Of a stretch of DNA of 64,000 bases, positions 35,030-49,082 are shown piece by piece. Where the stretch lies: the NCBI GenBank assembly GCA_938009235.1, contig CALLIK010000006.1, forward strand, positions 1 through 64,000, written 5' to 3'. Origin of the DNA: an uncultured Caulobacterales bacterium (GTDB taxonomy: Bacteria > Pseudomonadota > Alphaproteobacteria > Caulobacterales > Maricaulaceae). The position numbers and the translations under genes were made by a program. Each line of letters begins with the position of its first letter. The stretch's first letter is position 1. Under the pieces are notes generated by a model. It made no database searches. It saw only the letters and a list, made by a program, of their open reading frames with translations, and was not told where the DNA came from.

Positions 35030-36517
35030 CTAGGCCGTATGCGCGTTGAACCAGTCCGTAAATGCGGCTTTTTCACTGTCGCTCATATGGAGGCCCAATT
35101 TACTGCGACGCCATAAAATGTCGTCGGAAGATGTGGCCCATTCGTGATTGATGAGATATTTGGCTTCTAGCTCATATAGCCCTGCGCCGAAATGCTGTCC
35201 CAGTTCTGGCTGAGATGTGCCGTCGCCCAAGAGGAGCGTGATGCGCGTGCCGTAAGCATGGCAGAGACGCCGCAGCAGATCCGTATTCATCGCGCGGTAA
35301 CGCTTGTGCATATCGGTAAAGAACAGCTCGAAGTCGGCATTGATTAAATCGCCGCCAGGCAGAAGCGCGGTCTCTGTCCAATCGCCCGTTTTGTAGTCGT
35401 AATACTCTTTGAGCTGATCCATGGCATGTTCGCCAAGCTTCCGGGAGGTCGTAATTTTTCCGCCGTAAACGGATAGGAAAGGGGCGCCTTTCGCATATTC
35501 CTCAACGTTCAACTTATAGTCTCGCGTGACTGCTGACGCATCAACGGCTTTGTCATCATAAAGCGGACGCACGCCCGCATAATCCCAGACAACATCGGCG
35601 GGCGTAATGTCATTTTCGAAATATTCACTGGCCGCGTCGCAGAGATATTCAATCTCTTCTTGGCTGATTTTTACAGGTCCGTCCGCGAGATCATATGGCT
35701 TATCCGTTGTCCCGATCAGCGTGTAATTATGCTCATAGGGGATCGCGAAAATGACGCGGTTATCTGCATTTTGGAAGAGATAGGCATGGTCGCCGTCAAA
35801 GAGTTTCTTGGTGACAATATGGCTGCCCGTAACGAGGCGTAGGGATTGCTCATTTTTGGTCGTTTTGATTTTCCCAAGAACGGCATCGACCCAAGGGCCA
35901 GCAGCATTGACGACGCCTGTGGTTGTAACGGTTTCGGTCTTGCCGTTTTGTTTGATCTCAGCCGTATAACCTTCACCTGTGGGCTTCACAGTTAAGACTT
36001 CGGTGCGGGTGCGGATATCTGCACCGCGATTGGCCGCGTCGAGGGCATAGAGCACAACAAGGCGTGCGTCTTCTACCCAGCAATCTGAATATTCAAACCC
36101 AGTTTTAAAGCGCGATTCCAAAACGCCCTTATGCGGGGCTTTGTCGAGTTTCAGAGATTTTGACCCCGGGAGTAATTCTCGCCCGCCAATGTGGTCGTAT
36201 AGGAATAGACCTGTGCGGAGCATCCAAGCAGGACGCAGCCCTTTGTCATATGGCAGCACAAAGCGCATCGGCCAGATAATATGGGGCGCAGCGCGGAGCA
36301 TGACTTCGCGTTCCTTTAGGGCATGACGCACGAGGTTGAACTCGTAATATTCCAAATAGCGCAGGCCGCCGTGAATCAATTTCGTCGAGGCCGAACTGGT
36401 GTGATTTGCGAGATCATCGCGCTCGCACAGGAGTACAGAGAGGCCGCGCCCTGCTGCATCTCGCGCAATCGCAGTTCCGTTAATGCCGCCGCCGATAATC
36501 AAAAGGTCATAATTCAT
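35030..36517 (-). CDS. glpD: Aerobic glycerol-3-phosphate dehydrogenase GlpD
   Basis: A 495-residue FAD enzyme that oxidises glycerol-3-phosphate to dihydroxyacetone phosphate and reduces ubiquinone at the inner membrane. The N-terminal dinucleotide motif is YDLLIIGGGINGTAIARDAAG; SSASTKLIHGGLRYLEYYEF is the GlpD signature; RPLYDD and the C-terminal DGTSQPELGQHFGAGLYELE domain follow. Normal length. Divergent from glpK across 90 bases, with sterol-desaturase-family and GT51-like genes downstream. Confidence 0.96.
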   Translation of the reverse strand: MNYDLLIIGGGINGTAIARDAAGRGLSVLLCERDDLANHTSSASTKLIHGGLRYLEYYEFNLVRHALKEREVMLRAAPHIIWPMRFVLPYDKGLRPAWMLRTGLFLYDHIGGRELLPGSKSLKLDKAPHKGVLESRFKTGFEYSDCWVEDARLVVLYALDAANRGADIRTRTEVLTVKPTGEGYTAEIKQNGKTETVTTTGVVNAAGPWVDAVLGKIKTTKNEQSLRLVTGSHIVTKKLFDGDHAYLFQNADNRVIFAIPYEHNYTLIGTTDKPYDLADGPVKISQEEIEYLCDAASEYFENDITPADVVWDYAGVRPLYDDKAVDASAVTRDYKLNVEEYAKGAPFLSVYGGKITTSRKLGEHAMDQLKEYYDYKTGDWTETALLPGGDLINADFELFFTDMHKRYRAMNTDLLRRLCHAYGTRITLLLGDGTSQPELGQHFGAGLYELEAKYLINHEWATSSDDILWRRSKLGLHMSDSEKAAFTDWFNAHTA

Positions 36518-38125: not shown

Positions 38126-38202
38126 GGGGGGTTAGCTCAATTGGTTAGAGCCGTCCGCTCATAACGGATTGGTTGGGGGTTCGAGTCCCTCACCCCCTAC
38201 CA
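38126..38202 (+). tRNA. tRNA with CAT anticodon (elongator Met or lysidine-Ile2)
   Basis: A complete cloverleaf with encoded CCA. Acceptor GGGGGGT (38126-38132) pairs with ACCCCCT (38192-38198), leaving a G1-U72 pair; D arm GCTCAATTGGTTAGAGC; anticodon stem GTCCG/CGGAT with loop CTCATAA, anticodon CAT; TTCGAGT T-loop; discriminator A and CCA (38200-38202). The missing three G-C pairs in the anticodon stem and the U72 pairing argue against initiator tRNA. Elongator Met versus Ile2 (needs TilS-modified C34) cannot be settled by eye; the TTGGTTG variable/T-stem entry looks slightly more Ile2-like. Confidence 0.95.
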
Positions 38203-42686: not shown

Positions 42687-43883
42687 ATGAAATTTGATTT
42701 AGAAAAAATGCGACGTGATACGCCGTCATGCACCTCAATTTTGCATTTCAACAATGCTGGCGCCTCTCTAATGCCTAAGCCTGTTTATACGGTCATGTGT
42801 GATTACTTGGCTCTTGAGCAATCTATGGGGGGGTATGAGGCTGCCACTAAATCTGCACAGGCGATTGATAGCTTTTATACAGCGTTCGCAAATTTGCTAA
42901 ATGCTGACCTTGATGAAATTGCCTATTGCGAGAACGCTACTCGGGCTTGGGATATTGCGGTAAATGCAATTCCATTTGAGGTAGGCGACCGCGTTTTAGT
43001 ACACGAAACTGAGTATTCCTCCAATTATCTAGGCTTGCTTAGATTGTCTCAAATCAAAGGCATAAAGATTGATATAATGCCAACTGACGCGAAGGGAGCG
43101 ATAAATTTTAAGGCGCTAACCGATATCGTCGATGCTAAGACGAAAGCGATTTTTTTAACCCATATTCCGTCACAGAGCGGAGCGATAAACCCGGTGAATG
43201 AAGTTGGTGAATTCGCGCGTCAGCATGGACTTATATATGTTCTGGATGCCTGCCAATCGGTTGGGCAAATGCCTGTCGATGTTAAAGCGATTGGGTGTGA
43301 TATTTTATGCGGTACGGGACGTAAGTTTTTGCGTGGCCCTCGCGGGACAGGTTTTTTATACGTCAAGAAAAGCAGGCTAACTAATATGCATCCTCCTTTT
43401 GTGGATTTGCAGGCAGCTGAATGGACATCCACACATAGCTATACATTACGAGATGACGCGAAACGCTTTGAGGGATGGGAGCGGTTTATGGCAGGACAGA
43501 TAGCGCTCGCTGAGGCGGCTCGCTATGCCATGGATATTGGGCTTAATGTAATCCAAGAGCGTATTGCTCTTGTGTCTGAAAGCCTGCGTACGCAATTACA
43601 GAACATTGATGGGGTTACATTACGTGAACGGGGCGAAGGGAAACAGTCAGGGATTGTGACGTTCGAACTCAAGGGACGTGACGCTTCGGATATTGTTCTT
43701 TTACTACGAGCCAAAAATATCAATGTATCTGCGGCGAGAGTTGAACATGCAAGGTTAGACCTAGAGGGGCGCGGCATTGTGGCACTTGTTCGTGCTTCAG
43801 TTCATTATTACAATACTCAAGATGAGATCGAACGGTTTTGTACAGCCATTCGAAATCTACGGGAGTGTTCATCCCGTATGTAA
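42687..43883 (+). CDS. ovoB: PLP-dependent sulfoxide lyase, class V aminotransferase fold (OvoB/EgtE-like)
   Basis: A 398-residue fold-type-I PLP enzyme. Visible: HFNNAGASLMPKPVYTVM, ENATRAWDIAVNA, LDACQSVGQMPVDV with the PLP Asp, and the Schiff-base Lys in CGTGRKFLRGPRGTGFLYV. This is the NifS-like class V group that includes EgtE and OvoB, which cleave the C-S bond of a histidyl-cysteine sulfoxide. The assignment to OvoB rests on ovoA lying 63 bases downstream on the same strand. AT-rich relative to the housekeeping genes. No good TATA-type promoter seen; AAAT-rich sequence precedes it. Confidence 0.82.
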   Translation: MKFDLEKMRRDTPSCTSILHFNNAGASLMPKPVYTVMCDYLALEQSMGGYEAATKSAQAIDSFYTAFANLLNADLDEIAYCENATRAWDIAVNAIPFEVGDRVLVHETEYSSNYLGLLRLSQIKGIKIDIMPTDAKGAINFKALTDIVDAKTKAIFLTHIPSQSGAINPVNEVGEFARQHGLIYVLDACQSVGQMPVDVKAIGCDILCGTGRKFLRGPRGTGFLYVKKSRLTNMHPPFVDLQAAEWTSTHSYTLRDDAKRFEGWERFMAGQIALAEAARYAMDIGLNVIQERIALVSESLRTQLQNIDGVTLRERGEGKQSGIVTFELKGRDASDIVLLLRAKNINVSAARVEHARLDLEGRGIVALVRASVHYYNTQDEIERFCTAIRNLRECSSRM

Positions 43884-43946
43884 GTCTGTAATGGTAAGGC
43901 GATTTATACTGTGAGGACATCCGAGCAGATAGAGTGAAAAGAAAAA

Positions 43947-46097
43947 ATGACACCACAAAATATGACCTCTGGTGTTTATGATGAAATTTATTTTATTACG
44001 AAAACGCTCAACCTAAAAACAGGAGCGGTTGAGGTCAAACGCCAGGAAATTTTAGAGTATTTTCACAAAACATTTTCATTATATGAAAGCTTGTTCGACT
44101 GCCTAAATGGTGATGCCGCGTTCTATGCTCGCGCCAATAACCTCCGGCACCCCCTGATTTTCTATTATGGGCATACGGCTGTTTTCTTTATGAATAAGCT
44201 CAATGTTGCGGGATTGATAAATACCCGTATTGACCCCGTTATTGAATCCACATTGGCGGTGGGTGTAGACGAAATGTCTTGGGATGATTTGAATGATAAA
44301 AACTATGATTGGCCGACGCCTGCCACGGTAAAGGCTTATCGGGATAAAGTCCGCGACAGAGTTGATGGTTTTATCCGTAATTGTAGTTTCTCTATGCCGA
44401 TAGACCAAAACAGTCCGCTCTGGATTATCATGATGAGTATTGAGCACGAACGTATCCATTTGGAAACAAGCACCGTGTTGATCCGCGAGTTACCATTGAA
44501 CATGGTGAAATCTCACCCTTTATGGAGGGCTATCTGTAATGAGAGCGGGTCTGCACCAGAGAATGAACTGATAAATGTAGACGGGGGCCTGATGCAATTG
44601 GGGAAACCCAATGACGACCCTTTCTATGGGTGGGACAATGAATATGGGGCGATGAACGCGGAAGTGCCTTCATTTAAAGCGTCTAAATATCTTGTTTCTA
44701 ATTCTGAGTATCTAAGCTTTGTGGACAACGGCGGCTACACAACAGAGAAATATTGGAGCCCTGAGGGTTGGGCGTGGATAGCCTATCAAAAGCCTGAGCA
44801 TCCAAAGTTCTGGGTAAAGTCTGACGACACATATCAATATCGTACAATGTTAGACGTGATTGAGATGCCTTGGAATTGGCCTGTCGATATTAATTACCTT
44901 GAAGCCAAAGCTTTTTGTAATTGGAAAAGCGAACAAATGGATGCTCATATACGGATGCCAACCGAAGCCGAATGGCATCAGTTAAGAACGCTGGTAAAGA
45001 CCGATCAGCCAGATTGGGAAAATGCGCCAGGGAATATAAATTTAGAGTTTGTAACGTCATCTTGCCCTGTTGATAGACATGAATTTTCAGGTGGTTTTTT
45101 CGATGTGATCGGCAATGTGTGGCAATGGACGGAAACGCCTATTGATGGGTATGATGGGTTTAAAGTGCATGAAGCGTATGATGATTTTTCTACGCCAACA
45201 TTTGATGGCAAGCATAACCTTATCAAAGGCGGGAGCTGGGCTTCGACCGGTAACATCGCTTTAGAGAAATCACGATACGCGTTCCGTCGACATTTTCATC
45301 AGCATTCAGGTTTGCGTTATGTCGAAAGTGAACCTTTGCCTGCTCCAAGCCTTAATCGCTATGAGATGGATGGTCTCGTCACGAAGGATATTGAATTCCA
45401 GTACGGACAAGAACAGTTAGGCGTTGCTAACTTCCCCGTTGCTTGCGTAAATGCTGTAGCGGAATATTTAGAGGATCACAAAACCCTGCGCGCCCTTGAT
45501 ATCGGATGCGGGACGGGGCGTGCATCCTTTGAACTCGCTAAATGCTTTAAGCATGTAGACGCCGTTGATATTTCCGTTCGCCTCATTGAACCGCCTGTAA
45601 ATTTACAAAAAACAGGCGCGCAGCGCTATGTTGTACCCGATGAAGGGGAGCTTGTTTCATACCGCGAAGTTAAACTGTCTGACTTTGAGGCATATGATTT
45701 TGTGAAAAACAAAGTGACGTTCCTTCAAGGTGACGCGTGTAACCTTGCAGACAAATTTAAAGATTATGATCTCGTCTTTGCAAGTAACTTAATTGATAAT
45801 TTGTATGATCCTGAAAAATTCTTACGTGCTATTCAGGACAGAATTCGATCTGGTGGGCTGCTTGTGATTATATCGCCTTATCATTGGACTGAAGAACATA
45901 CTGCGCGCGACAAATGGCTGGGTGGGTTTAAAGCGCATACAGGCGAGACCTATAAGACGCTTGAAGGTATAACGGATATTTTAACGGCCGAATTTGAAAG
46001 CGTTGACGTTCCACGCGAGATACCATTTGTCATTCGCGAAACAGCACGTAAATTTACGCATAGCGTTTCCGAGATGAGTGTGTGGAAAAAGAGGTAG
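43947..46097 (+). CDS. ovoA: OvoA: 5-histidylcysteine sulfoxide synthase fused to mercaptohistidine methyltransferase
   Basis: A 716-residue three-part enzyme. Residues about 30-200: DinB-like domain with the non-heme iron His set, including YYGHTAVFF and EHERIHLE (HX3HXE). Residues about 210-470: FGE-sulfatase/C-type-lectin fold (FKASKYLVSNSEYLSF, DVIGNVWQWTETP, KGGSWASTGN, RRHFHQHSGLRYV). Residues about 505-716: SAM methyltransferase with LDIGCGTGRASFELAKCF. That order is diagnostic for OvoA, which joins cysteine to histidine with O2 and, after C-S lysis, N-methylates mercaptohistidine to ovothiol A. Followed 9 bases later by the ATP-grasp gene. Confidence 0.93.
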   Translation: MTPQNMTSGVYDEIYFITKTLNLKTGAVEVKRQEILEYFHKTFSLYESLFDCLNGDAAFYARANNLRHPLIFYYGHTAVFFMNKLNVAGLINTRIDPVIESTLAVGVDEMSWDDLNDKNYDWPTPATVKAYRDKVRDRVDGFIRNCSFSMPIDQNSPLWIIMMSIEHERIHLETSTVLIRELPLNMVKSHPLWRAICNESGSAPENELINVDGGLMQLGKPNDDPFYGWDNEYGAMNAEVPSFKASKYLVSNSEYLSFVDNGGYTTEKYWSPEGWAWIAYQKPEHPKFWVKSDDTYQYRTMLDVIEMPWNWPVDINYLEAKAFCNWKSEQMDAHIRMPTEAEWHQLRTLVKTDQPDWENAPGNINLEFVTSSCPVDRHEFSGGFFDVIGNVWQWTETPIDGYDGFKVHEAYDDFSTPTFDGKHNLIKGGSWASTGNIALEKSRYAFRRHFHQHSGLRYVESEPLPAPSLNRYEMDGLVTKDIEFQYGQEQLGVANFPVACVNAVAEYLEDHKTLRALDIGCGTGRASFELAKCFKHVDAVDISVRLIEPPVNLQKTGAQRYVVPDEGELVSYREVKLSDFEAYDFVKNKVTFLQGDACNLADKFKDYDLVFASNLIDNLYDPEKFLRAIQDRIRSGGLLVIISPYHWTEEHTARDKWLGGFKAHTGETYKTLEGITDILTAEFESVDVPREIPFVIRETARKFTHSVSEMSVWKKR

Positions 46098-46106
46098 GCT
46101 TTCACA

Positions 46107-47264
46107 ATGAGTTTTAAAGACAGCCTAACCTCGTTCAAATTTCTATCTGAGTTATATCAAGCAGATGAGCCTGATGCTGTTCTCATGACGGAATATCCGT
46201 CTTCAAACAGTCGTGAAACACAATTTCAAAATAGAACACAATATATTATCCACGACCCGTATCCCGCGCCACCGATTGGTCTTTTAAAAACATTGGGTCC
46301 GCATCACCTTATGTATGGGTGGGGGAATAAAGTTCCTGTCACATCTGAAATAGAACCTCCGCGTGAGTTGGTTGATCACTGGGAAAAAATGTTTGGCGAA
46401 GCGGGGCGTCCTGACTGGCAAGGACTTGACAGTGAGCAAATATATATCACGTCATTTCCATTTGAGGCGATAGAAGCGTCCCGGCAAGTGATTGAACCTT
46501 CCGCACTTTATCATCTGCATTCCAAGGAAGCGATTGTAGAGATTCCTTGCTCGCAAGCTGAGGTGTATAAAGACGTTCAATTTCCGTGCCTCATAAAGCT
46601 GAGCCATGGCTATGCTGGCTTAGGTAATTTCTTTGTTCGGAATGAAGCTGATTTAAAAAAGGCGCAAAGCCAGATCAATGAACAATGGCCTGATGCGCCA
46701 CGTGTTATCAATCAACTACTTAGTGATATTGTTGGTGATTACGGCGTTCAATTTTACCTCAACAAACAGGGTGAGCTAACTTGGCTCGGTTTCACAGAAC
46801 AAGTCTTTAGTGCCGCAGGAAAATGGAGTGGAGGTGTTTTTAACGCTGACATTCAAGATGAGTTCTATGATGAATTTTTAAGAGTGGCTCAGCCGGTTGC
46901 TAAATACCTTCATCAGCGTGGGTATTTTGGCGTTGTTGGAATCGATATCCTGCAAAACAAAAAAAATGAATTTTTCTTGGTTGATCTCAATCCACGACTA
47001 ACGGGGATCACGCCTTTCTTGGTCGCGTCTAGGCTCTTTATAGATGAGGGGTATTCTCACGGAATTTATGCTGCGAGTGTTGAATTGTCAGGTACGTTGA
47101 GTGACATTCTTAGGCGTGTCGAGGCTGTAGCTGACACCCGTATTCTAATTCTTGGTGCCTATCAGGCTCCTGAATCTCATATAACTAAATGCCATATCTC
47201 TATTAGTGGAAAGAGTCTGCGCGATTGTGAAAAGCAGTTATCAGATTTAAAACTCAAGCACTGA
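46107..47264 (+). CDS. ATP-grasp ligase in the ovothiol cluster
   Basis: A 385-residue protein of unassigned function with an ATP-grasp domain in its second half: the ATP-binding Lys and Gly loop in VQFPCLIKLSHGYAGLGNFFV (about residues 150-171), the hinge region near RVINQLLSDIVGDYG, and the metal-binding acid/Asn in FLVDLNPRLTGITPFLV. These enzymes form amide or ester bonds by way of an acyl-phosphate. Only 9 bases separate it from ovoA, so it is very likely co-translated and could ligate ovothiol, or its precursor, to an amino acid or amine (inference). I know of no assigned enzyme of this kind in ovothiol synthesis. Confidence 0.82.
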   Translation: MSFKDSLTSFKFLSELYQADEPDAVLMTEYPSSNSRETQFQNRTQYIIHDPYPAPPIGLLKTLGPHHLMYGWGNKVPVTSEIEPPRELVDHWEKMFGEAGRPDWQGLDSEQIYITSFPFEAIEASRQVIEPSALYHLHSKEAIVEIPCSQAEVYKDVQFPCLIKLSHGYAGLGNFFVRNEADLKKAQSQINEQWPDAPRVINQLLSDIVGDYGVQFYLNKQGELTWLGFTEQVFSAAGKWSGGVFNADIQDEFYDEFLRVAQPVAKYLHQRGYFGVVGIDILQNKKNEFFLVDLNPRLTGITPFLVASRLFIDEGYSHGIYAASVELSGTLSDILRRVEAVADTRILILGAYQAPESHITKCHISISGKSLRDCEKQLSDLKLKH

Positions 47265-47295
47265 TGAAGATGTGCTTGAGTCTTTATGTTCGTAC

Positions 47296-47350
47296 CTTAG
47301 CGTAAGGCTTGAAAGTTGTCGCTAAGACGACAAACCCCTTTAGAGGTTTG
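47296..47350. repeat. Stacked inverted repeats between convergent genes
   Basis: CTTAGCG/CGCTAAG (47296-47302, 47320-47326), TTGTCG/CGACAA (47316-47321, 47328-47333) and CAAACC/GGTTTG (47331-47336, 47345-47350) overlap, so only some can form at once. No U-run follows on either strand. It separates the ATP-grasp and oxygenase-like genes and may block read-through. Confidence 0.45.
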
Positions 47351-47357
47351 GGCTGAT

Positions 47358-48293
47358 TTAGAAATTTCTTTCATAGGGTTCGACATCCACAACAGAACCT
47401 GCCGCCATCGTGTCTACTTTAAATGTTACATAATCTGCATGTTGCGAACTGACGGCAAGTTTCGTCTTTTTGAGTGCAATACCTAGAATAGATTTGCTCA
47501 ATCGGTTGATTGGAGATTGTTTCGTCCAACTCGGTGACACGCCAAATTTTTCACGTAAAGTCGCATTTGCGATCATGGCCGCATTTTTCAACGCGCTTTC
47601 TTTCGAAGAAAACTCGGTCGTTACAGATACACAAAACCCATGATTATCTACCCGATGCGGAGCACTCAAAGGCCATGAGACAGCTTGTCCTTCGGCTAGG
47701 TCAATAAAGGTAGCATCTTCATCGAATGATGGGTCATAGGGTAGGTCATCTTCAAGCATATTCGTGACGGCTTGCTCGTATGACTCATCTGAGATAAATT
47801 TTTCTTCGATGGGATAGAAAAATATGCGTTTAGGTCCTCTTACGTGCCAAAGGATAGTTTCAGTTTTATCAAAATGATACGGGGTTTTTGCGACAGGTGA
47901 TGTGATTAAAATTCCACCGTTCGCATTGAAAGGCTTCTTACCCGTATTTTTGGCGATACCACTGTACATTTGGTCCAGAACTAATGAATATTCAGGATGA
48001 ACGTTCATGGCCTTACGGAGGTTAATCCACACTTTTCCTGTTTTAGCCGCTTGGAATAGTTCCTCTGCTGTAGAGTCCCTAAAGTCTCCCGTCCGAAGTT
48101 TATTTGGATAGCGAGTATCGCTGGCCGGTCCCATCGTACAAACATCCGTGAGCTCATCAGGGTGCTTTTCTATCAGCTTAATTAAAGCGCTGTCCGTAAA
48201 GAGGCCAGTTGAGGCTAGGTCATGAGAAAAAGTAAACACACTTTTCCTAAAACTCGCACTCATCTTTTTAGTCCAGTTGGTTATAATTGTCAT
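47358..48293 (-). CDS. JmjC/cupin-like putative Fe(II) oxygenase
   Basis: A 311-residue protein. The ATG at 48293 lies 9 bases behind GGAG and is preferred over one five codons upstream. A double-stranded beta-helix oxygenase core is suggested by TPYHFDKTETILWHVRG (HxD metal ligands) followed by RIFFYPIEEKF, and FIDLAEGQAVSWPLSAPHRV with the distal His, then VSVTTEFSS. This is the pattern of cupin_8/JmjC-type 2-oxoglutarate oxygenases. Substrate unknown; its position convergent with the ovothiol operon suggests but does not prove a link. Confidence 0.68.
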   Translation of the reverse strand: MTIITNWTKKMSASFRKSVFTFSHDLASTGLFTDSALIKLIEKHPDELTDVCTMGPASDTRYPNKLRTGDFRDSTAEELFQAAKTGKVWINLRKAMNVHPEYSLVLDQMYSGIAKNTGKKPFNANGGILITSPVAKTPYHFDKTETILWHVRGPKRIFFYPIEEKFISDESYEQAVTNMLEDDLPYDPSFDEDATFIDLAEGQAVSWPLSAPHRVDNHGFCVSVTTEFSSKESALKNAAMIANATLREKFGVSPSWTKQSPINRLSKSILGIALKKTKLAVSSQHADYVTFKVDTMAAGSVVDVEPYERNF

Positions 48294-48308
48294 GTTTTGG
48301 AACTCCAT

Positions 48309-49082
48309 CTAGCTTTCATGGAGCTCCTTGCAAGAGTGATGCCAAATGGATGTATCAAAGTTATCACAACCGAGTAAAATTAACGCTTATGGGTCATATT
48401 TAGACTTGGGCTGCAGGGCTTGGCTCTCTTCGTAACTTGGTAATTGACCCTGCACCACCAAAGCCCTTTTAACTGGAATAAGATGATTGGCTACTTTGAT
48501 AACATCGTCATGAACACGTCCATCGCGGTTTGACGCGATTGCTTTGAAGAGCGTGCATTACGCATCACTGCTGCCAGACTATCTATTTCGTTACTCATGC
48601 CAGCGCCCCTTGACCTAATTCATTATCTTTTGAAGTCATTGTTTTAACCTGCACTTGATCTCGTTCATCCTCCAAGCCACCGTACCTTAAACTATGCCCA
48701 GAACCTCTGCGGCTTCGGCGAAAGTCTTCTGCTCGCCCAGTGTCGGAGCGTAAGTCCTGGGGTAAAGTTCCGAGTGCCTGTTGCAGCCATGAGAGATGTT
48801 ATTCCGTGTCCGCAGTATTCTTGAGCGAGAGGCGGATCTTCGCAGGGCACCTTTCGCGGCATTTAATACGATACAGTGCAGCCAGCTTGTGACTTTAGAT
48901 TCACCTCGCCAATTTCGTAGCTTACCGGGCAGGGATGCCCATATTTCCTGCGTGATGTCTTCTACATCGCTTTGATTACGCACAACGCTTCGCTATCCTG
49001 TTTTTGTCTAATCTTACCTATAAGACGTATCTCACTGAGCAATCCTTGGAAATATTTTAAATTTTCTTCAGTTTATCGGTTT
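48309..49082. other. 774-bp spacer holding only gene remains
   Basis: Apart from the ECF sigma remnant (48491-48995) I see nothing functional. The far end (49000-49082) is AT-rich and could carry the transcription stop of the AGE gene, but no clear hairpin was found. The near end (48309-48360) is the upstream region of the oxygenase-like gene. Confidence 0.6.
48491..48995 (-). pseudogene. Decayed ECF RNA polymerase sigma factor and possible partner
   Basis: Recognisable sigma pieces lie in order on the minus strand: region 2 (QSDVEDITQEIWASLPGKLR, then GESKVTSWLHCIVLNAAKGA) in frame from GTG 48983; the start of region 4 (WLQQALGTLPQDLR) in another frame; and its end (FAEAAEVLGI, then after a TAA at 48687 GTVAWRMNEIKCRLKQ to a TGA at 48636) in the first frame again. 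The start of region 2 is missing behind stop codons. So at least two frameshifts, one nonsense and a 5' loss. A 35-codon ORF follows (48598 to 48491, MSNEIDSLAAVMRNARSSKQ), where an anti-sigma gene would be expected. Confidence 0.75.

Follow-up and report, generated by a model that had tools for sequence, protein, structure and literature searches.

An ovothiol-type operon with a probable ATP-grasp amide ligase in a Maricaulaceae bacterium

The window analyzed here, a stretch of 64,000 nucleotides from contig CALLIK010000006.1 of an uncultured Caulobacterales bacterium (family Maricaulaceae), contains three genes in line, for a class-V PLP-dependent lyase, the sulfoxide synthase OvoA and an ATP-grasp protein (Table 1). 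An initial annotation of the window had described a lyase, an OvoA with a built-in methyltransferase and an ATP-grasp protein in this order, with only 9 bases between the last two, and both the open reading frames and the family matches agree with it. The lyase and ovoA genes are 63 bases apart. At the ovoA/ATP-grasp junction, the AGAGG sequence resembles a ribosome site by inspection only, and is not seen at the corresponding junction of the Hellea locus described below. A JmjC/cupin-like gene converges on the three, as had been annotated, but its assigned end at 48293 is an internal ATG, and the frame continues to 48308; the alignment to its homologue in the same-genus genome G053 also begins at this internal ATG. 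On the minus strand at 48687-48983, a 98-aa frame matched only sigma-70 region 2, and is possibly a broken ECF sigma factor gene.

Table 1. Positions of the features discussed; those without a locus prefix refer to the window.
Feature	Position	Strand	Remarks
Class-V PLP-dependent lyase gene	42687-43883	+	398 aa; ORF confirmed
ovoA, sulfoxide synthase with fused mercaptohistidine N-methyltransferase	43947-46097	+	716 aa
ATP-grasp protein gene, probable amide (dipeptide-type) ligase	46107-47264	+	385 aa
JmjC/cupin-like gene	47358-48308	-	316 aa; convergent on the other three
ovoA/ATP-grasp junction	46086-46109	+	9-base gap; AGAGG in last ovoA codons
tRNA-Met(CAT), left border of variable region	38126-38202	+	ARAGORN
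A3 family members behind ovoA without methyltransferase domain	L062:4264-5319, L063:5065-6120		
A3 family members directly upstream of ovoA, same strand	L118:7338-8477, L120:4846-5970, L121:4820-5965, L122:7447-8574		
PF03747 members	L110:4137-5255, L111:4080-5255, L113:8057-9190, L124:9280-10362		L110 seen directly, others placed by sequence likeness

Judged by its sequence, the OvoA of this cluster is a complete, full-length and canonical member of TIGR04344. The sulfoxide synthase domain scores 670.8 bits against this model (curated cut-off 400), and the C-terminal N-methyltransferase domain 303.2 bits against TIGR04345 (curated cut-off 170). Among solved structures, the closest is that of the bifunctional enzyme in PDB entry 8khq, aligned over residues 19-715 with an E-value of 2.8e-239. 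The motif HX3HXE, which I take to be the OvoA iron motif, is present as HERIHLE at residues 167-173.

The lyase belongs to PF00266 (aminotransferase class V, 226.5 bits), but lies below the equivalog level for both SufS (NCBIfam, 198.7 bits, cut-off 475.1) and EgtE (TIGR04343, 140.2 bits, cut-off 400). Its Ala355 aligns with the catalytic cysteine of the desulfurase 5b7s, so the desulfurase cysteine is missing, while the stretch GRKFLRG is kept, with the presumed Schiff-base Lys213. For these reasons a C-S lyase is a better fit for the protein than a desulfurase, and it probably cleaves the OvoA sulfoxide, in the role of OvoB or EgtE. With EgtE, the hercynylcysteine sulfoxide lyase of the ergothioneine pathway, it would share the class-V PLP fold and, likely, the C-S cleavage role, although it scores under the EgtE cut-off. 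By inspection, the Hellea lyase has the same residues at the Lys and Ala positions; in the lyase of genome G002, GRKFLRG was found, and neither a VEH nor an EHA motif. I scanned with Pfam 69 neighbours of ovoA, hand-picked, mostly on the same strand and at most two places from ovoA, from loci other than L060, L063 and L064. PF00155 (class I/II) occurs in 12 of them, these being the PLP genes of ovoA loci outside the class. The lyase here is a class-V, EgtE/SufS-like protein, unlike the class I/II proteins beside ovoA outside the class.

The third protein matches PF02655 (ATP-grasp_3) at 35.9 bits, above the gathering score of 23.2, which places it in the ATP-grasp superfamily. Its best solved relative is PDB entry 7r8p, which I take to be LdmS, with an E-value of 6.4e-10 for the single sequence and 2e-20 for a four-row profile. 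The best NCBIfam model is likewise LdmS (NF047900), at 67.9 bits, far below the equivalog cut-off of 475. NCBIfam names LdmS L-aspartate--L-methionine ligase, and the 7r8p entry is titled 'ATP-grasp domain-containing protein'; no paper on either was found in the literature searched. Positions K164, D280, D293 and N295 are identical in all four rows of the profile alignment (A2: window, Hellea, Gloeothece and Kovacikia), and R297 is kept in the first three and in 7r8p, with Q in the Kovacikia row. Catalytic roles for these five residues are assumed from known ATP-grasp enzymes. The motif GVVGIDIL...DLNPRLTGIT corresponds to GVAGFDLL...DLNFRQNGST in 7r8p, with D..L...DLNxRxxGxT in common. An AlphaFold model from a two-row alignment had a mean pLDDT of 35.6, too low for use. 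The ATP-grasp signature, motif and profile match shared with LdmS make ligase chemistry plausible, as had been proposed, and the protein is a probable amide (dipeptide-type) ligase.

The same three genes, in the same order, are found in one genome of another genus of the family, at a different site: the Hellea MAG G018 (JALZWM010000063.1, locus L002), which NCBI assigns to the Robiginitomaculaceae. There, the gaps are 76 bases between lyase and ovoA and 8 bases between ovoA and the ATP-grasp gene, and identities to the window are ∼79% (lyase), ∼80% (OvoA) and ∼82% (ATP-grasp). The ATP-grasp partner is therefore conserved beside ovoA in a second genus, and since the order recurs with other flanks, the cluster is more than a chance arrangement. 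Between the two copies (Nei-Gojobori), dN is 0.120, 0.114 and 0.118 for lyase, ovoA and ATP-grasp, with dN/dS of 0.064, 0.091 and 0.089; dS is 1.88, 1.25 and 1.32, which is near saturation. All three genes are under strong purifying selection. Of 18 reciprocal-best pairs between the two genomes, drawn from parts of both that were sampled for convenience, these three also have the highest similarity. The other 15 pairs are 27 to 78% identical (RecJ is 59% identical between the two genomes), with dS of 2.49 to 5.23 in six and undefined in nine, and several of the lowest-identity pairs are probably non-orthologs. Fourfold-site identity ranges over 0.39-0.51 in the cluster genes and 0.20-0.56 in the other pairs, three of which overlap the cluster's range (0.405, 0.452 and 0.559, the last on 34 sites). 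That the cluster simply makes ovothiol A, with an inactive or vestigial ATP-grasp protein, is highly improbable: the activities of OvoA, a lyase and the methyltransferase domain do suffice for this product in other organisms, according to the accessible text of PMC12631010, but the ATP-grasp gene shows its low dN/dS over 385 aligned codons and keeps recognisable catalytic positions.

The JmjC/cupin-like gene is a different case. Its Pfam matches are below threshold (Cupin_8, 16.7 of 27.4 bits; JmjC, 13.6 of 24 bits), and no PDB relative was found at an E-value of 1. Homologues (E 1e-5) are present in 128 of 136 family genomes, few of which have ovoA, and the window's own genome has a second copy, 55% identical. 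The nearest homologues, in G053 and G052, are flanked by genes that have no relatives in the vicinity of the window's cluster. No trace of the gene was found in the 515 bases between the Hellea cluster and the end of its contig, where a short frame resembles what is presumably a TIGR03643-type protein. With this spread, these other contexts and its absence behind the Hellea cluster, I rejected the gene as a pathway member; it most likely belongs to the resident genes of the lineage and lies outside the system. The suggestion that an oxygenase modifies the thiol further is not supported, the gene being widespread in the family and showing no linkage to ovoA in the other contexts compared.

The ATP-grasp gene is rare. 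A full-length homologue was found in 2 of 137 family genomes, and OvoA over its cut-off in 5; both ATP-grasp genomes fall among the five with OvoA, which has a chance of 0.001 if the two are treated as independent. In the class sample the counts are 1 of 385 (the window's own genome) for the ATP-grasp gene and 3 for OvoA, and in the phylum sample 1 of 398 (no genome beyond the window's own) and 24. The ATP-grasp searches used E 0.001 for the family and 1e-8 for class and phylum, and the samples overlap in genomes. The family search also returned 24 weak rows, one in each of 24 genomes: 23 of these genomes have no full-length gene, and the remaining row is a second one in the Hellea MAG. The rows span ∼150-190 residues at 22-27% identity. 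They lie in open frames of ∼450 or 700-1200 aa, and by this length would be biotin carboxylases and carbamoyl-phosphate synthases. A plasmid collection yielded three distant matches, from Gloeothece, Kovacikia and a Staphylococcus, and viral contigs held no relatives of the ATP-grasp alignment A1. The two cyanobacterial plasmid relatives, from Gloeothece and Kovacikia, are 27% identical, and neither has an ovoA gene closer than 8 kb; the family at large is thus not specific to ovothiol.

I then compiled 29 ovoA loci, namely the 24 of the phylum sample, window included, and those of G018, G002, G128, G121 and the sub-threshold G043. A profile HMM of the ATP-grasp family, run on all six frames, matched only the window and the Hellea locus, with E-values under 1e-190; the next two matches were short frames (0.035 and 0.22). 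This ATP-grasp family is thus absent from 27 of the 29 loci, the sister G002 included, with L119 and L064 among those cut by contig ends. The initial annotation had proposed counting the co-occurrence of the two genes, and the answer is mixed: a close homologue adjoins ovoA in both genomes that have one, but the cyanobacterial relatives stand away from it. Such relatives, the restriction to two genomes and the name of LdmS, given for joining ordinary amino acids, would suit a ligase whose product, some dipeptide or amide serving as osmolyte, cofactor or signal, has nothing to do with thiohistidine, and which is carried with the ovo genes as a passenger of an island operon. I regard this as unlikely, given the gaps of 9 and 8 bases, the nearly equal dN values and the fact that the three genes have stayed together at two sites whose flanks differ.

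A variable region of ∼33 kb, which spans contig positions ∼38.2 to ∼71.2 kb and is bordered on the left by a tRNA-Met gene, contains the cluster. The gene at 36323, presumably glycerol-kinase-like, and this tRNA are adjacent in all four same-genus stretches compared (G053, G059, G045 and G060), these being the ones that extend far enough out of six. In G053, the next conserved gene after the tRNA, which I take to encode an ABC-F-like ATPase, is 94% identical to the one at ∼71.2 kb of the window's contig; the two landmarks are ∼1.4 kb apart there, against ∼33 kb, with the ovo cluster, here. The corresponding interval in G059, ∼9 kb long, is occupied by different genes; for two of these, the window's contig has relatives at 34-45% past 64 kb. 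The ABC-F-like gene did not turn up in the stretches compared from G045 and G060. The Hellea cluster sits after a tRNA-Pro and a dehydrogenase gene, and at the matching tRNA-Pro site of the window's genome the cluster is missing. A search of 38-52 kb for repeats of at least 25 bases found none. The AT-richness noted earlier is true but mild: the GC content of 42687-47264 is 44.1%, compared to a mean of 48.9% (sd 2.5%) for 50 same-size pieces from sampled parts of the genome, two of which are as low. Acquisition, also proposed earlier, gains support from the place of the cluster in this variable region behind tRNA-Met, and a horizontal origin of the operon is supported.

As far as the genes allow the chemistry to be predicted, the cluster represents a genuine and conserved variation on the ovothiol operon, a known pathway. 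OvoA would couple cysteine and histidine to a sulfoxide, from which the class-V lyase would free 5-thiohistidine, and the C-terminal domain of OvoA could N-methylate this product. The ATP-grasp enzyme would then use ATP to form an acyl phosphate, and release ADP and phosphate as an amide is made, joining the thiohistidine to another small molecule, most probably an amino acid, to give a peptide-like mercaptohistidine thiol. On balance, I consider it somewhat more likely than not that this is a horizontally acquired ovothiol-type operon with a dedicated ligase making an amide of 5-thiohistidine or ovothiol. This is suggested by the three-gene order in two genera, the similar dN and dN/dS, the kinship to LdmS and the restriction of the ATP-grasp gene, within the family, to genomes with OvoA, as well as by the other operon partners of ovoA in relatives and the 5THNAT precedent (both below). 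Against it stand the two genomes only, perhaps with one transfer history, such that the association may be a single event, the low score to LdmS, the plasmid relatives without ovoA, and the many ovoA loci without the ligase. I only infer the ligase substrate (thiohistidine or ovothiol), the joined end and the partner molecule.

The ligase could also act before OvoA, by making a Cys- or His-containing dipeptide as its substrate. EgtB-type enzymes use gamma-Glu-Cys (gamma-glutamylcysteine), which provides a precedent, and the shared operon and selection would fit as well. I nonetheless consider this order improbable, because this OvoA is canonical at 670.8 bits, PMC12631010 (accessible text) describes OvoA as an enzyme that couples histidine with cysteine, and 27 of the 29 ovoA loci, including the sister G002, lack this ligase.

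Returning to an amide made on the thiohistidine, the cluster has the full two-domain OvoA and a PLP lyase in common with ovothiol A biosynthesis, but the lyase is of class V and an ATP-grasp protein is added. There is also a likeness to the 5THNAT clusters of Bacteroidota, in which, according to the accessible text of PMC12631010, 5-thiohistidine is converted to an amide by an additional enzyme encoded together with ovoA. This ovoA-neighbour enzyme was shown to modify 5-thiohistidine, but it is a GNAT-type acyltransferase using acetyl-CoA, from another phylum, whereas the enzyme here is a predicted ATP-dependent ligase. The same text, of 2025, names OvoA as the only other known enzyme that recognises a 5-thiohistidine derivative, and the word ligase does not appear in it. 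No report of an ovothiol or 5-thiohistidine ligase was found in the literature searched, which is weak evidence of absence as subscription papers were largely outside the search; in the accessible part of an archaeal review naming both ovothiol and ATP-grasp, the two terms are unrelated. If such a ligase does build on thiohistidine, ovothiol would be an intermediate as well as an end product, and the conjugate would give a concrete target for LC-MS. It would also raise the question of why a second, conjugated thiol is kept in a bacterium that already has a gene for glutathione synthetase (GshB, 396.3 bits, cut-off 299.05). The presence of GshB makes it unlikely that the thiol stands in for missing glutathione.

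In a tree of the 29 OvoA sequences, the window and Hellea proteins pair with support of 100/100, G002 joins them at 98/97, and then G128 and G121 at 88/99, under the level starred by the tool. The partners of ovoA differ among these relatives. In G002, a 232-aa gene with sub-threshold methyltransferase matches (L061:225-923) lies 9 bases behind ovoA; it may encode the alpha-N-methyltransferase, so far missing, of ovothiol B and C. The OvoA proteins of G128 and G121 have no methyltransferase domain (470 and 478 aa), and ovoA is followed by a gene for a 351-residue protein and then by two more, which in G128, the one scanned for families, encode a class-III aminotransferase and a BKACE enzyme. 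Genes of the family to which the 351-residue protein belongs (alignment A3; 350-380 aa) adjoin ovoA in 6 of the 29 loci; four of these (L118, L120, L121 and L122) come from a single further family of the phylum that lies outside the class. The OvoA proteins of these four group together, apart from those of G128 and G121, in a tree with a weak backbone, and the association of A3 with ovoA may have one single origin.

The A3 family has the invariant stretches FELEG, HIPNA and EHRLGA, and no match in Pfam (four members), NCBIfam (one member) or PDB profiles to an E-value of 10; none was found in plasmids, with the L120 member as query, nor in viral contigs. Its motifs ExE, GxHxxS and RxExR...NPYL would recall glutamine synthetase. 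This assignment is unsupported by the Pfam and PDB searches and by HMMER without filters, and hhalign against one glutamine synthetase-like protein gave a probability of 0.2 (E 0.31). As a separate observation, the 94.8% complete assembly G000 has no glutamine synthetase (PF00120) at an E-value of 0.001, while all 14 control genomes have one.

The neighbour counts cover the 25 commonest of 80 families, and a lone ATP-grasp protein of another family could be missed. According to PMC12631010 (accessible text), 5THNAT also accompanies some of the OvoA homologues that lack the methyltransferase module. The varied partners, together with 5THNAT, support, without proving, the notion that genes in an operon with ovoA often modify the thiohistidine. 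A broader proposal, which I hold as tentative, is that ovoA operons swap unrelated tailoring genes and that 5-thiohistidine serves as a scaffold for conjugated low-molecular-weight thiols, here an aminoacyl- or peptidyl-ovothiol made by the first ATP-grasp thiohistidine amide ligase. It is weighed slightly lower because the A3 gene lies upstream of, and not behind, ovoA in the four loci outside the class.

Two further neighbours of ovoA were observed. RavA-type AAA and VWA genes directly precede ovoA in L104, L108 and L109, all from one family, with a LARA domain in 3 of the 69 neighbours scanned and L104 seen directly, and a PF03747 ADP-ribosylglycohydrolase gene stands beside or near ovoA in 4 of the 69 neighbours scanned (Table 1).
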